From positions 15,972,501-16,036,500 of the forward strand of contig CM077649.1 of assembly GCA_039707465.1 (NCBI GenBank): 64,000 nt of DNA, given 5' to 3'. Of this stretch, positions 13,248-38,206 are shown piece after piece. The stretch's first letter is position 1. Each line of letters opens with the position of its first letter. Both the position numbers and the translations under genes were made by a program. The stretch comes from Rhabdophis nuchalis (Eukaryota > Chordata > Lepidosauria > Squamata > Natricidae). The notes under the pieces are model-generated. The model was not told where the DNA came from. It saw only the letters and a list, made by a program, of their open reading frames with translations, and made no database searches.

Positions 13248-13712
13248 ATGGCTCGGGACCTAGTTACATGCGAGACCATCTCCTGCCCCATACATCCCTT
13301 AGACCGATACGCTCCCACAGAGAGGGCCTCCTCAGGGTGCCGTCGGCTGGACAATGCCGACTGGCAACACCAAGGGAAGGGCCTTCTCTGTGGCGGGCCC
13401 TGCCCTGTGGAACGACCTACCCCCTGAACTCTGTACCATCACCGACCTCCGCCTCTTCCGCCAGTGTTTAAAAACACACCTGTTTCATCAAGCCGGCCTA
13501 ACATAGCCTCCGCTGTGACGAGTATTAGATAGTTTTAAAATGGGGGATTTTAATTGGTTTTAGCACAGGTTTTGTTATTTAATAGGTTTTTAAATTTTTG
13601 TATTTTGTATTACTTTGTATGTTATTTTAATTTCCTGTGCGCCACCCTGGGTCCTTTTGGAGAAGGGCGGGATACAAATCGAATAAAATCTAAATCTAAA
13701 TCTTAATTATTT
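13248..13712 (+). mobile_element. L2 LINE 3' end
   Basis: Begins at the 'atggctcgggacctag' codons of ORF2, keeps about 67 aa of open frame, then a 3' UTR ending 'tggagaagggcgggatacaa' and a tail of 'aaatct' repeats. Same subfamily as 6107-6780 and 33050-33684 (signature GQCRLATPR). Confidence 0.88.
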
Positions 13713-14670: not shown

Positions 14671-14679
14671 TGTCTACAT

Positions 14680-14894
14680 CAGGGGTTCCCAAACTTGGCA
14701 ACTTGAAGACTTGTGCACTTCAACTCCCAGAATTCTCCAGCCAGCTCTGGCTGGAGAATTCTGGGAGTTGAAGTCCACAAGTCTTCAAGTTGCCAAGTTT
14801 GGGAACCCCGGTCTACATGCATAGCTCTGCTGGCTGGAGAATTCTGGGAGTTGAAGTCCACAAGTCTTCAAGTTGCCAAGTTTGGGAACCCCTG
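14680..14894. mobile_element. Fold-back hAT element with an 84-bp tandem duplication of its right half
   Basis: A 131-bp palindrome (14680-14810) is flanked by GTCTACAT at 14672-14679 and 14811-14818. The right arm plus GTCTACATGCATAGCT is then repeated, giving a third GTCTACAT at 14895-14902. Confidence 0.88.
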
Positions 14895-15138
14895 GTCTAC
14901 ATGCATAGCTACTTCTTTCAAAACAAGATATCTGTTTAATCATTTTAATGTTTTTTTTACAAATTTATTAATTGGGATTAGATTTTGATTATTAAAGAGA
15001 AGGATGAAAGGAATTCAGACTAAATGGAAAGGAAGATTATATATTTATATTGTTATATATTTCTGTTAATTTTTACTGGACCTTTGTTGATTAATAAGTG
15101 AAGATTTACAGAGGAGTTAATAGAAAAATGGCATTGGA

Positions 15139-15564
15139 AAAAAATTAATGCACCCTCATGAAACTACAAACAGGAAAATACTTGAATGTGCAGAAATGGA
15201 TAAAATGACAATAGAACTAAAAGAAAGAGAAGAATCGGACTTCTATAAAGTATGGAATAAAATGTACAAGTGGCTAGAAATTAGAAGCCAAAACAGAAAA
15301 TAGAGAATACAGTGATACAAATAATGAATATTATTATGTGTTAATATTATGTTTTCTACATTATAGGATAAGGATATAGTAATAGGAAGGTAATGAAGAA
15401 GGAAGAATTATAAAAGCTAAGCAGGAAAGCCGGTATAGAAAGCTGCAGAATTATTGTATATTGTTATATATGTTCTGTGTTTTGTTTTGCTGTTTTGAAT
15501 TTTTTATACTTGTCTTCTCATTGTTTTAAAGATTAAAACATTTAATAAAAATTATTTAAAAAAA
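15139..15564 (+). mobile_element. L1 LINE 3' end, 5'-truncated
   Basis: Encodes the ORF2 C-terminus (DFYKVWNKMYKWLEIRSQNR, stop near 15301), then a T-rich 3' UTR with AATAAA (about 15543) and an A-rich tail. Target-site duplication of 17 bp with one mismatch: 15122-15138 and 15565-15581. Confidence 0.88.
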
Positions 15565-15696
15565 AGAAAAATGGCATGGGATTGAAGATATATATATATA
15601 TATTATATATATATATATAATATATATAAGCTGATGTAATAGGGAACTGGTTTGGCTTAAGTGTGAGGCCTCTCGCCTTACATGCAACATAGCCCC

Positions 15697-15707
15697 AGTT
15701 CGAATCC
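15697..15707 (+). promoter_or_regulatory. B-box-like motif of hammerhead copy A
   Basis: AGTTCGAATCC, one mismatch from the pol III B box GGTTCGANNCC, 14 bp before hammerhead A. Confidence 0.55.
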
Positions 15708-15720
15708 CAGTAAGGGCTAT

Positions 15721-15767
15721 GGCCAGTTGATGAGAGCTAATAAGCTCGAAATAGATCTATCCTGGTC
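15721..15767 (+). ncRNA. Hammerhead ribozyme copy A, core mutated
   Basis: Helix I GGCCAG (15721-15726)/CTGGTC (15762-15767), helix II GAGCT-AATA-AGCTC (15734-15747), GAA at 15748-15750, helix III ATAG-AT-CTAT (15751-15760) and C17 at 15761. The first core stretch is TTGATGA instead of CTGATGA (15727-15733): the essential C3 is U, so cleavage is expected to be lost. Confidence 0.85.
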
Positions 15768-15802
15768 TCTTCTAATTTAATTTATTGATCAGCTCATTAA
15801 AC

Positions 15803-15834
<32 letters not shown>

Positions 15835-15836
<2 letters not shown>

Positions 15837-16041
15837 AATTGTTTCACAACAACCTGTTATTATTAGGCCCCAATTAAAGGGAGGAGACATACTGTTTCCC
15901 TTACTGCCCATCGGCTCATCGCTAGAGACCATCCAAACAGCAAGCCAAGAATTACGTTGTATAATATTTTAGATATGTGTGTTAGTTTTATGAGCTGATC
16001 AATTGGGGCCTAATAATAACAGGTTGTTGTGAAACAATTAC
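15835..16041. repeat. 41-bp perfect inverted repeat inside the tandem unit
   Basis: 15835-15875 is the exact reverse complement of 16001-16041 (starts GTAATTGTTTCAC, ends AACAATTAC on the other side). The 125-bp spacer contains a conserved family block. The copy at 18224-18636 keeps only the left version, so the second arm was gained in this copy. Confidence 0.93.
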
Positions 16042-16089
16042 CTATACTAATATACCCTGTCTAAGCTGATGCAATAAGGGGAACCGGCT

Positions 16090-16144
16090 TGGCTAAAGTG
16101 CTAGGCTACTTGCTTAGCATGCAACATAGCCCCGGTTCGAATCC
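16090..16144 (+). promoter_or_regulatory. tRNA-like internal pol III promoter (A and B boxes)
   Basis: A-box-like TGGCTAAAGTGC (16090-16101) and a perfect B box GGTTCGAATCC (16134-16144), about 33 bp apart, as in tRNA-derived SINEs. They lie directly upstream of hammerhead B. Confidence 0.65.
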
Positions 16145-16157
16145 CAGTAAGTGGTAT

Positions 16158-16204
16158 GGCCAGCTGATGAGAGCTAATAAGCTCGAAATAGATCTATCCT
16201 GGTC
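16158..16204 (+). ncRNA. Hammerhead ribozyme copy B, complete type I core
   Basis: Every core position is present: helix I GGCCAG (16158-16163)/CTGGTC (16199-16204), CTGATGA (16164-16170), helix II GAGCT-AATA-AGCTC (16171-16184), GAA (16185-16187), helix III ATAG-AT-CTAT (16188-16197), U16.1 and C17 (16198). Predicted self-cleavage lies between 16198 and 16199. Helix III is very short and its ten bases ATAGATCTAT are a perfect palindrome, which favours pairing between two ribozymes (the dimeric mode described for Penelope and retrozyme hammerheads). Activity is inferred from structure. Confidence 0.9.
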
Positions 16205-16262
16205 TCTCTCTAATTTAATTTATTGATCAGCTCATAAAACTAACACACACACACACACACAT

Positions 16263-17228
16263 ATATGTATGTTATATGTTAAGAGACAGCGATACATTAT
16301 TTTATATTGACTATATTTGCTGGGGATGAAGGGGGATAGTTCTTTCTTTTTACCATTTTCTTTATGGGTGGGAGATTTTTTTTCTCTTTGTTCCACCACT
16401 TTTCAATGTTTTTTGTATTTTTATATTAGGTTCTTGTATTACTTTTATTTTAATATCAACCTTAATTAAATTATTGAAAGCAGGGTAACATGAAGACAAC
16501 TGGAATAATTTTTCAAAGTTATTGCAACTGCAATAACTTGCTTTTATGATTAAAAAAACCCCAAAAGGTGTGGGGAGAGGGTGCGGTTAATAAATTTCAA
16601 TTTCAATTTCAGAATGCACGCTTGCAAGTTCCAAAGCAGCCATTTTGAAGGATTTGCACAGCCTTAATGATTACCTTTCAGTGGTAATTGCACTTCTTTC
16701 ACCAGAGGTCTTTCACAAGATGGTGCCTGAGAAACCGAGTTCTGGTTGCTACATTTCTGAAGTGCTTAAAGTTGGGGAATATGGGCTTGTTTGTCTGGAT
16801 TTTTGCTTATTTGTTCTTAAATGCAGTTTGTCAGTCGTACATTGTTTTCAGTCCTTTTTAATCTCTGGTGGATTTTATTCTGCTGTGTCAGTGTAGAATT
16901 CCTTGGTCCAGAAAAGTTTTCCTGTTCATTTGAATTAACGTTTAGATACCTATTTAAACATATTGATTAGATCTGTGCAAGGGCAGAGATGCACAAGTCG
17001 TTTCATAAAACAAGGATGCCAACATGCACAGAAACACTATAACTGCTTTATACTTATTTGTTTTTGTACTAAGGTACAAATATGTGCTTCCTATCCTATC
17101 AAATTTACTCTTAAATTATATTTGAAGGCATTAGCATACTTAAAGAAACAAAGTGGTTTTTCAGCACTGCTCACCTTCCTAGAGGCTTACTTATAATTAA
17201 AAATTATCTTGGAAAAACTGCTTGAATA
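16263..17228. other. Unique stretch with one L2 3' terminal piece
   Basis: 16569-16612 is a plus-strand L2 terminus ('gtggggagagggtgcggtta') with an (ATTTCA)n tail. The T-rich part at 16330-16450 could be an L1 3' UTR but has no poly(A) or target duplication. Nothing else recognised. Confidence 0.5.
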
Positions 17229-17842
17229 CACAGCAAAATGCAGCAGCCTGCATGGTTTTGGGCAGATCTCTGTGTGCACATGTATCTCCCATGTAACATC
17301 TCTCCTGCGCGAGCTGCACTGGCTGCCTGTGGCCTTCCAGGTGCATTTCAAGGTCTTAGTGACCATCTTTAAAGCGCTCCATGGCATGGGACCTGGCTAC
17401 TTACAGGACCGCCTCCTACCACATACCTCCACCCGACCAGTCTGCTCCCACAGGGAGGGCCTCCTTAGGGTGCTGTCCGCCGGGCAATGCCGGCTGGCGA
17501 CCCCCAGAGGAAGAGCCTTCTCTGTGGCAGGCACCGCCCTCTGGAATGACCTGCCTCCCGACCTCCGCACAATCACAGACCTTCGCCTCTTCCGCTGGGC
17601 ATTAAAAACATATTTCTTTCGTGCGGCCGGCCTGGCATAGCTGATGTAGCTATGTTACTATTTTAACTGGGTTTTTAAATCAAGCTTTTAGCACGGGTTA
17701 ACCTTATTTAATAGTAGTTTTAATTTTTGGATTGTTGTATTTTTTATATTTTATAATTCTTGTGTACCGCCCCGAGCACCATGTTCGGGAGAGAGGACGG
17801 CATAATAAACAAACAAACAAACAAACAAACAAACAAACAAAT
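17229..17842 (+). mobile_element. L2 LINE 3' end, third subfamily, (AAAC)n tail
   Basis: C-terminal ORF2 block open at 17209-17640 (143 codons, GTALWNDLPPDLR, FRWALKTYFF), a 3' UTR ending 'ttcgggagagaggacggcat' and a tail of AAAC repeats (17811-17840). The first 60 bp are degraded. Confidence 0.88.
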
Positions 17843-17845
17843 AAA

Positions 17846-18190
17846 TAATATCACCTCTCTGAGGGAGCTGCATTGGTTGCCAATTGCTGAATCAGAGTAC
17901 AATTCAAGGTGCTGGTTGTCACCTTTAAAGCCCTTCATGGCTTGGGACCAGGTACCTGAAGGGCCATCTCTTGCCTGTCACATCTACTTGATCCACTAGA
18001 GCAGGGAGGCAAAGAATGTTGCGGGTCCCATTCCCTAGAAAGATGCATCTGGAGGGATCCAGAAGAATGGCCTTCTCTATGGTGGCTCCCTCTCTTTGTA
18101 ACATCAATCCCCCAGAAATTACAATGGCCCCCACTCTAACACTCTTCTGGAAGGCGCTGAAGACCGGGTTGAGGGGTGGGGGGCTATTAT
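17846..18190 (+). mobile_element. Older, diverged L2-related LINE, 3' part
   Basis: Keeps 'ctgcattggttgccaattgc' and 'cccttcatggcttgggacca', the LHWLPI and FKALHGLGP positions, but is more diverged than its neighbours. Its likely 3' terminus reappears at 18637-18720 beyond the hammerhead repeat. Confidence 0.7.
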
Positions 18191-18223
18191 ATTATTTTAT
18201 TATTTTCTTTTATTAATATGTGT

Positions 18224-18260
<37 letters not shown>

Positions 18261-18464
18261 ACAACACCCTGGTAAGCCCCAATTAAGGGAGGAAGCATAC
18301 TGCTTTCCTTTTCTGCCTTTCGGCTCATCACCAGAGACCATCTAGACAGAAAGCTATGAGTTCCGTTGTGTAATTTTTATATATATGTGTGTTAGGTTTT
18401 TTGAGCTGATCAATAAATAAGCATTTATTATCCTCCTGTCTCAGCTGATCAGGATAAGAACCAG

Positions 18465-18519
18465 TAGTCTAGAGGCAATTGCCGCTGCCTCACATGTAAT
18501 ACTTCCCTGGTTCGAATCC
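18465..18519 (+). promoter_or_regulatory. tRNA-like A and B boxes upstream of hammerhead C
   Basis: A-box-like TAGTCTAGAGG (18465-18475; 9 of 11 to TRGCNNAGYGG) and a perfect B box GGTTCGAATCC (18509-18519). Confidence 0.65.
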
Positions 18520-18531
18520 CAGTAAGGGTAT

Positions 18532-18578
18532 GGCTAGCTGATGAGAGCTAAATAGCTCGAAATAGATCTATCCTAGTC
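18532..18578 (+). ncRNA. Hammerhead ribozyme copy C, complete core with compensatory change
   Basis: Helix I is GGCTAG (18532-18537)/CTAGTC (18573-18578): relative to copy B both strands changed (C to T and G to A), so pairing is kept. Core CTGATGA 18538-18544, helix II GAGCT-AAAT-AGCTC 18545-18558, GAA 18559-18561, helix III ATAG-AT-CTAT 18562-18571, C17 at 18572 with cleavage predicted before 18573. Confidence 0.9.
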
Positions 18579-18636
18579 TCCCTGATTTATTTATTGATCA
18601 GCTCAAAAAACCTAACACACACACACACACACACAA

Positions 18637-18720
18637 TGTTTTATACCCATGTAAGTTGCCTTGAGTCACCATGTGCAAATTGGTGGCAATATAAATCTTC
18701 CAATAAATAAATAAACATTT
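18637..18720 (+). mobile_element. L2-related 3' terminus split from 17846-18190
   Basis: 'ttgccttgagtcaccatgtg' followed by 'ggcaatataaat' and an (AATA)n tail is an L2-type 3' end in the right place and orientation to finish the older L2. Confidence 0.6.
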
Positions 18721-19054
18721 CCTCAGTGATTTCAGGTCACTTCAAATATTCAAATATTTTATTAATGTATAATGTAGTGTAATAATATTACACTGAGTTA
18801 GAAGAAAGGATGGAAAGTATAAGAAGTAGTGAAGTGGTTGGAAAGGAAAGCAAAGGAGCTAGCAAGAGGAGAGAGCTTTGGATCTCAGTTACTTTTAAAA
18901 AGATGTCTAAAAAGAAGATATACAACCATATGAATGTACACAATAATAGAGACATACTTGCTTGCCGACCTGTGCACAGGACTCCCAGAGGGATGGCTGA
19001 CAAGCAAAACTTTTCCAACTACTGCAGAGCCACGTTGCTAAAATGGGCCTAATT
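18721..19054. other. Unique stretch
   Basis: Nothing recognised; 80-codon frame at 18810-19052 has no motif. Confidence 0.4.
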
Positions 19055-37110: not shown

Positions 37111-38206
37111 TACCGTATTTTTCGGAGTATAAGACGCACCTTTTTTCCTCTAAAAAGAGGCTGAAAATCTGGGTGCGTCTTATACATCGAATACAGCATT
37201 TTTGGCCGCCTGAAACCCTGCCTCTTCACCAAAATGGCTGTACACATACCCTTATGGAGGCTTCCAGAGAGCTCCTGGGGGCTGGGGAGGGCAGAAATGA
37301 GCAAAAAACAGGGTGTTTTTGCCCCTCCCAGCCCCCAGCAGCACTCTATAAGCCTCCATAAGGCTATGCATGCTATTTTTTGACCAAACAAACAGCCCAT
37401 TTTCACGAAAAAAATGGGCCATTTTTCCTCATTTTGCCCCCCCCAATCTTTCCAGGAGCACTCTGCAAGCCCCCCAAGGCTATTCATGCCTTTTGTTTGA
37501 AACAAAAGGGCCCATTTGTTCAAAAAACGGGCTGTTTGGGGGAGGTTTGCACAGTGCAAAAAGGGTTTTCCCCCTCTTTCGAAAAGCTGTTTAGTTAGAG
37601 TGATTGATGAGAATTACATTGGTCAAATACTGTGCTTGCAGAAACAAAGATTTGTTCCAAAGGTGGTCAGTGATTTCCTTCTCCAGCACATGGGTAAGTA
37701 AATACACCTGGAAACATCTACCTACCTACCTACTCTCTCTCTCTCCTTACCTATCTAATGTATTTCTCTCTCTCTCTCTCTCTCTCTATTTTTCTCTCTC
37801 TCTATCCCTCTACCTACCTACCTTCCTACCTACCTACACTCTCTCCCTACCTACCTACTGGATTTCTCTCTCTCTCCCCTCTACCTATCTACCTACTCTC
37901 TCTCTTCCCCTACCTATCTACTGTATTTCTCTCTCTCTCTCTCTATTTCTATCTCTCTATCCCTCTACCTACTTATCTATCTACACACTCTCTCTCTCTA
38001 CTTGCCTACCTACTGTATTTCTCTCTCTCTCTCTCTCCCTATCCTTTTATTTACCTACCTACCTACTCTCTCTCTCTCCCTACCTACCTACTGTATTTCT
38101 CTCTTTTTCTCTCCCTCTCTATCGCCCTACCTACCTACCTACTTTTTTTTTAAAAAAATTGCGTCTTCTAAACCTGGGTGCGTCTTATACTCTGAAAAAT
38201 GCGGTA
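37111..38206. mobile_element. DNA transposon relic with CGGAGTATAAGACGCACC termini
   Basis: Left TACCGTATTTTTCGGAGTAT and right ATACTCTGAAAAATGCGGTA are inverted repeats about 34 bp long. The interior has GC-rich inverted segments (37196-37590) and a large minisatellite. No transposase frame. The target duplication is unclear and the superfamily undecided. Confidence 0.75.
37718..38145. repeat. Compound CTAC / CT minisatellite
   Basis: Alternating CTAC tracts, CT tracts and a 'tactgtatttctctct' motif recur at roughly 65-100 bp. The long open frames across it are low-complexity artefacts. Confidence 0.92.

Follow-up and report, generated by a model that had tools for sequence, protein, structure and literature searches.

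Two type I hammerhead ribozymes lying in direct orientation a few hundred nucleotides apart raise the question of whether they bound a repeated unit and, if so, of what kind. The window analysed here (a stretch of 64,000 nt of the Rhabdophis nuchalis genome) contains such a pair, which a preliminary description interpreted as the borders of a 437-nt tandem unit belonging to a non-autonomous mobile family. Here, we have compared this locus with 27 further loci (L002-L028; L001 was omitted, being the locus in the window itself), which were chosen by similarity to its copy B and of which L003 and L004 resemble one duplicated segment, with a background sample taken at round positions of contigs C1-C4 (20 stretches, each of 10 kb; 200 kb in total, 195 kb without N), and with the whole 1.92-Gb genome.

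Hammerhead ribozymes and their conservation

The plus strand of the window carries three type I hammerheads: two direct copies, A (15721-15767) and B (16158-16204), and a third one downstream (18532-18578), which lies outside the coordinates of the preliminary description and was not included in it. Cleavage is predicted after 15761, 16198 and 18572, respectively, and the first two sites are 437 nt apart, as originally described. The Rfam search that had been proposed as a check gave a divided answer: no hammerhead was matched in the window at gathering scores, whereas in E-value mode all three were matched on 15500-18800. Copies A and B matched HH9 (30.8 bits, E = 5e-5 and 34.3 bits, E = 3.7e-6; below the cut-off of 52 bits), and the third copy matched Hammerhead_1 (33.4 bits, E = 9.2e-6; cut-off 34 bits). 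When up to three mismatches were allowed, a core pattern of 35 letters was found three times in the window, and 100 shuffles gave 0.00 hits on average. Hammerhead B has a complete core with no base missing and a perfect palindrome, ATAGATCTAT, in helix III, so both of these earlier observations hold. The core of copy A has T in place of C3 (TTGATGA, not CTGATGA), a change that we presume to impair that ribozyme. In the third hammerhead the core is intact, and a C-G pair of helix I has become U-A through two matching changes (GGCTAG/CTAGTC).

We collected 61 hammerheads of 22 kinds from the 27 loci and the window, and all 22 kinds were kept for a covariation test, including several with a helix mismatch. 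Compared with shuffled sets, which do not preserve the relatedness among copies, the fraction of paired cells was higher (94.4% versus 88.5%), as were the number of doubly changed cells (27 versus 9.7) and the covariation score (0.289 versus 0.163), with 0 of 500 shuffles as high in each case. Changes on both sides of a pair occurred in helix I (C-G to U-A), helix II (G-C to A-U and A-U to G-C) and helix III (A-U to G-C). Two other measures, the number of pairs that had changed on both sides (4) and the number of additional pair types (8), did not exceed those of the shuffles. Folding of single copies was not better than that of shuffled sequences for A (85 of 200 shuffles as good) or B (88 of 200); for the third copy 12 of 200 were as good, and a complete 348-nt unit folded slightly better than its shuffles (3 of 100 as good).

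Family size and unit length

The exact core pattern had 11,239 matches in the genome, and its reversed control had none. Helix III was paired (TAGATCTA or TGGATCCA) by eye in all of the first 100 matches listed, which come from a single contig, within its first 29 Mb, and were obtained with a pattern that allowed mixed pairs. When copies of 16056-16261 were sought, the best 40 of 2180 candidates were 97-100% identical, which suggests that the family has been active recently; one family copy was present in the background sample.

Exact head-to-tail pairs of cores, for which the pitch was calculated as the gap of the core pattern plus 49, occurred at 1,552 places with a pitch of 327-355 nt. Only 41 places, the window locus among them, had a pitch of 417-445 nt, and these were of many lengths; the reversed control gave 0 in both ranges. 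Individual head-to-tail units measured 348 nt (L010 and L026), 331 nt (L006), 349 nt (beta, L019) and 343 nt (gamma, L023), and the normal unit is thus about 330-350 nt, or ~345 nt. The genome-wide count that had been called for therefore bears out the earlier proposal of a non-autonomous-looking mobile family with type I hammerheads, which is high-copy, probably recently active and also arranged head to tail.

Upstream of the hammerhead, box A and box B motifs of Pol III type, 45-46 nt apart, were found in single representatives of the three subfamilies, alpha (L026), beta (L019) and gamma (L023); 0.005 pairs with such spacing would be expected per unit. In the two copies in the window, reading of the sequence gave a box A-like TGGCTTAAGTG (15653-15663) and a box B-like AGTTCGAATCC (15697-15707) in copy A, and TGGCTAAAGTG (16090-16100) and GGTTCGAATCC (16134-16144), respectively, in copy B, all on the plus strand. 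The head is termed tRNA-like only, since neither the window nor L005-L008 had a tRNA match in Rfam; ARAGORN likewise reported 0 tRNA genes in the window, and its lax calls were rejected as tRNA evidence. The absence of TTTT was discarded as a sign of Pol III transcription, given that 2662 of 5000 dinucleotide shuffles also lacked it.

Two probable compound insertions in the window

The DNA around hammerheads A and B consists of three family pieces. Insertion A (15627-15834, plus strand), preceded by (AT)n at 15588-15628, is a 5'-truncated copy that runs from unit position ~212 through the hammerhead to an end point named site A and ends in (CA)n. The next piece (15835-16003) lies on the minus strand, where it covers unit positions 24-191 with a reverse-orientation match of 97%, and its 3' end at 15835 corresponds to a second end point, site B (CAATTAC). 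Copy B (16001-16261, plus strand) extends from unit position 151 through the hammerhead to site A, followed by (CA)n and then TATATG; it is joined 5' to 5' with the inverted piece with an overlap of 3 nt, and 15835-15875 and 16001-16041 form a perfect inverted repeat of 41 nt. The direct repeat reported between A and B covers 129 nt (15642-15770 and 16079-16207, 88%), and a further pair of 53 nt in their tails has a spacing of 438. Farther downstream, a second probable compound insertion comprises an inverted piece (18255-18420, minus strand, unit positions 20-186), with (TG)n at 18219-18259 on its left, and a plus-strand copy (18486-18635), whose 3' end is at site A with (CA)n.

Most likely, 15627-16261 is a solo truncated copy A beside a twin-primed inverted pair (15835-16261) within an (AT)n/(CA)n stretch, and 18255-18635 has the same layout. 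The 437-nt spacing would then be accidental, because a truncated copy happens to stand next to an inverted pair, and the locus itself is not a head-to-tail array. The proposed 437-nt tandem unit could not be maintained: the intervening 15835-16003 is inverted and the direct pair extends over only 129 nt. The same applies to the suggested unit-length RNA of 437 nt, as the pitch of the family is 327-355 nt and the spacing at this locus comes from the inverted piece. A 437-nt unit of the family as a whole was rejected in view of this inversion together with the pair counts given above.

Several other repeats were observed in the window. Two repeats of 127 and 138 nt with 76-77% identity (13248-13507 and 17381-17641), ~4.13 kb apart from start to start, flank the hammerhead locus. 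The mir-5408 model matched below its cut-off on both strands at 13 places (2843, 14706, 29088, 42669, 48902, 50197, 52915, 53807, 56063, 58298, 58658, 59852 and 60325), which are inverted repeats of ~54-88 nt and look like a palindromic, MITE-like repeat; 14675-14899 contains several of its arms. The Rfam miRNA matches in the window were rejected as miRNAs, being below cut-off and on inverted repeats. A dense CTAC/TCTC-rich tandem array with several nested periods occupies 37718-38143.

Insertion ends and orientation of joined copies

To locate the ends of insertions, 92 blocks in the 27 loci and the window were mapped, 28 of which had been selected via their similarity to copy B and 64 of which were non-selected. 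Among the non-selected blocks, 18 had their 3' end at site A (alpha unit position ~51, CTAACACACA), 34 at site B (~186-204, around GAAACAATTAC) and 12 elsewhere, that is, 52 of 64 3' ends fell in two narrow intervals; the selected blocks ended at site A in 27 cases and at site B in one. The 5' ends were scattered, and 2 of 64 non-selected and 5 of 28 selected ones lay within these intervals. Of the 47 terminal tails examined (from the 27 loci, the window and L035), 32 had TATAT or ATATA in the next 20 nt; this was so for 864 of 20,000 random 20-mers and, in the background sample, for 2 of 12 stretches downstream of (CA)6 or longer.

Opposite copies joined at a gap of ≤10 were diverging, with their 3' ends outward, in 20 cases and converging in 1, a figure that is the strongest yet the least even-handed. 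At wider gaps, diverging joints outnumbered converging ones by 27 to 7 (≤30), 29 to 13 (≤80) and 30 to 17 (≤300, p 0.08); the bias shrinks with gap because BLAST leaves unaligned the (CA)n/(TA)n that lies within converging joints. Overlaps of 1-12 nt were found in 13 of the 27 diverging joints at a gap of ≤30. Pairs within 1 kb among the first 100 hammerhead places listed were diverging in 11 cases versus 3 converging (p 0.057).

We also examined 5' ends at the predicted hammerhead cut. Exact counts were 1970 from +4, 1880 from +1 and 1807 from -3 (a count of 1,065 for another tail variant was omitted from this series), and 5' ends were not enriched at the cut: the loss was 3.9% across it versus 4.6% in the neighbouring 3 nt. 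A spike at this position had been suggested by the sampled ends, 4 of 92 of which fell at +1 to +3, and was rejected since the genome counts show no pile-up. If cleaved RNA were a common template, such a pile-up would be predicted, and the counts argue against it. Head-to-tail copies cross the cut site, and their templates would therefore be uncleaved multimers or religated circles, which the genomic data appear to fit alike. At one place (G000:C1:119228928-119228994), two opposite tail pieces 3 nt apart both match from the cut site onward, and neither is among the places listed as extending 3 nt further upstream.

Possible relationship to Penelope-like elements

Penelope-type pieces were present in 11 of the 27 family loci, in 0 places of the background sample (195 kb without N) and in 0 places of the window. 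Such a piece has a hammerhead-like start with an apparent ORF start, and AT repeats come after its ends. Rfam matched no hammerhead at E ≤ 1 at those in L005-L008, and a strict regular expression for Penelope-type hammerheads gave 0 matches. A genome search for the GIY-YIG domain (PF01541), with 150 of 1267 candidates scored, did not find an autonomous Penelope ORF; its sole match (L049) looks like what we take to be the host SLX1 gene, and PF01541 was abandoned as a route to the autonomous element. When tails were compared with the Penelope-type tail, 12 of 2000 and 15 of 2000 shuffles were as high for two variants of the beta tail, and the gamma (1157 of 2000) and alpha (1683 of 2000) tails had no significant sequence in common with it. 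A single clear case of a mixed junction was found in L005 (~1908): a Penelope-type piece and a family copy that begins precisely at its cut site meet by their 5' ends, as though one insertion had drawn on two RNAs. In the 19 joints between Penelope-type and family pieces within 60 nt, the two pieces met tail to tail in 9 cases, diverged in 2 and shared a strand in 8.

These pieces appear to be Penelope by their match to the published description of the anole element PAc. In vitro, the purified PAc protein cleaves AT-rich DNA, starts internally at AC-rich sequence, and both cleaves and extends the two strands; its ORF starts inside the hammerhead, a tail of 30-40 bp is optional, and cleavage-dead hammerheads cause no drop in insertion (PMC11167929). 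When the genomic ends are set against this description, an AT-rich target and an internal AC-rich start would fit the family as well. The link to Penelope suggested earlier thus gains strength from the insertion ends, namely the two 3' sites, the AT-repeat flanks and the diverging pairs. In 2020, Penelope-like elements were described as only a strong candidate for the movers of animal retrozymes (PMC7229834).

Alternative explanations and a proposed mechanism

We regard it as probable that a retrozyme-like family of small retroelements, seemingly without coding capacity, is present and that 15627-16261 is a compound insertion of it, and weighed four other explanations. A plain DNA-level tandem (satellite) duplication with a 437-nt unit, whose RNA is cut into 437-nt pieces, would account for two direct hammerheads at exactly this distance, and the copies do flank microsatellites that could recombine; it is extremely improbable, however, given that 15835-16003 is inverted and thus outside any direct unit and that pairs spaced 417-445 nt apart are scarce and vary in length (41 versus 1,552 at 327-355 nt). 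It is also very unlikely that we are dealing with pieces of a Penelope-like element and its own pLTR hammerhead, and not with a separate family. The flanks are similar and Penelope-type pieces lie near or adjoin family copies in 11 of 27 loci, but these pieces differ in sequence, beginning with a different hammerhead-like motif and an apparent ORF start, and a head-to-tail repeat of 327-355 nt at 1,552 places leaves no room for a reverse transcriptase.

A further possibility is a LINE-mobilised SINE with a tRNA head; the hammerhead would then be carried along as a passenger, and the AT/CA flanks would be the usual tails of a SINE. The box A/B sequences of the three tested units and the simple-repeat tails would suit it, and the background sample does contain LINE reading frames, which we assume to be CR1-like. 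Against this stand the covarying hammerhead helices, the head-to-tail copies that continue across the cut into the next unit, the AT-repeat flanks, and the two internal 3' end sites together with 5'-5' inverted pairs, which to our knowledge are not usual for SINEs; we consider this origin unlikely. Finally, the family may be retrozyme-like while its inverted pairs arose afterwards, when copies inserted into one another or palindromes were repaired at fragile (AT)n, as opposed to twin priming within a single insertion. There are indeed joints that converge through (CA)n/(TA)n (13 at a gap of ≤80), and joints of the family with Penelope-type pieces are tail to tail in 9 of 19 cases. The tightness of the diverging joints (20 of 21 opposite pairs at a gap of ≤10) and the overlap of 1-12 nt in 13 of 27 of them at a gap of ≤30 argue in the other direction and make a secondary origin of the pairs rather doubtful.

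For a retrozyme-like family, the following course of events may be proposed. Multimeric copies would be transcribed by Pol III from box A/B or by read-through, and the hammerheads would cleave the transcripts in vivo, probably aided by dimers formed via the palindromic helix III. Cleaved RNA might then be ligated to circles, or uncleaved multimers might be used. A Penelope-like element would reverse transcribe this RNA in trans after nicking (TA)n-rich DNA, with reverse transcription starting inside the RNA at one of the two sites, and extension of both nicked strands would sometimes yield inverted pairs whose 5' ends are joined and whose 3' ends point outward. A Penelope partner with twin priming has, in our view, roughly an even chance of being correct, and we are equally balanced on the more general proposition that a Penelope-like protein moves hammerhead retrozyme RNA in trans, with starts at two sites within the RNA, extension of both nicked strands of AT-repeat targets and 5'-5' inverted pairs as its footprint. 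If true, this proposition would identify the machinery that animal retrozymes have so far lacked. Since the ends of the insertions, their flanks and the orientation of the pairs agree with what purified PAc does, the question of what moves retrozymes becomes directly testable.

Comparison with known systems

Among the matches listed in the literature on retrozymes and hammerheads in reptiles, judged by titles and the openings of abstracts, we found no such family, which may nevertheless already be known. The main text of PMC7229834 does not mention reptiles, lizards or snakes. HH9 (RF02275), the family that copies A and B matched best in Rfam, is known as a single conserved intronic motif of amniotes, whereas the hammerheads described here occur in thousands of copies.

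As for the autonomous anole PAc, the family shares AT-rich insertion, internal AC-rich starts, two start or end sites, a hammerhead in the RNA and partial tandem copies with the element as described (PMC11167929). PAc differs in having a reverse transcriptase and a GIY-YIG nuclease, and its hammerhead cleaved only once protein was added (PMC11167929). The family was rejected as a Penelope element, since units of 327-355 nt are too short to hold an ORF for both enzymes. With tRNA-derived SINEs it shares the box A/B spacing of Pol III promoters, and a recognisable tRNA head was not found by Rfam. The schistosome Sm-alpha and Sj-alpha elements belong to another phylum and are likened here by description, not by sequence; they are tRNA-related and SINE-like, carry a type I hammerhead and have an estimated copy number of >10,000, as does the family here (PMC2770079, PMC8490949).

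As in metazoan retrozymes, the core is intact and the helices are paired (with C3 changed in copy A), head-to-tail repeats fall within about 150-450 bp, and G+C content is <50% (41% in one unit, L006). Like the metazoan non-LTR retrozymes, whose units measure 331 and 353 nt in the axolotl, the family combines a type I hammerhead with a short helix III and a palindromic loop, has short tandem units of similar length in high copy number, and shares its genome with Penelope-type elements (PMC7229834). Unlike metazoan retrozymes as described there, it has a box A/B head in the units tested, 5'-5' inverted pairs and two internal end sites beside AT repeats (PMC7229834). By the features tested, and judged from sequence, the family would thus belong with the metazoan retrozymes (PMC7229834), with the addition of a head that is SINE-like, as is that of the schistosome element Sm-alpha (PMC2770079).
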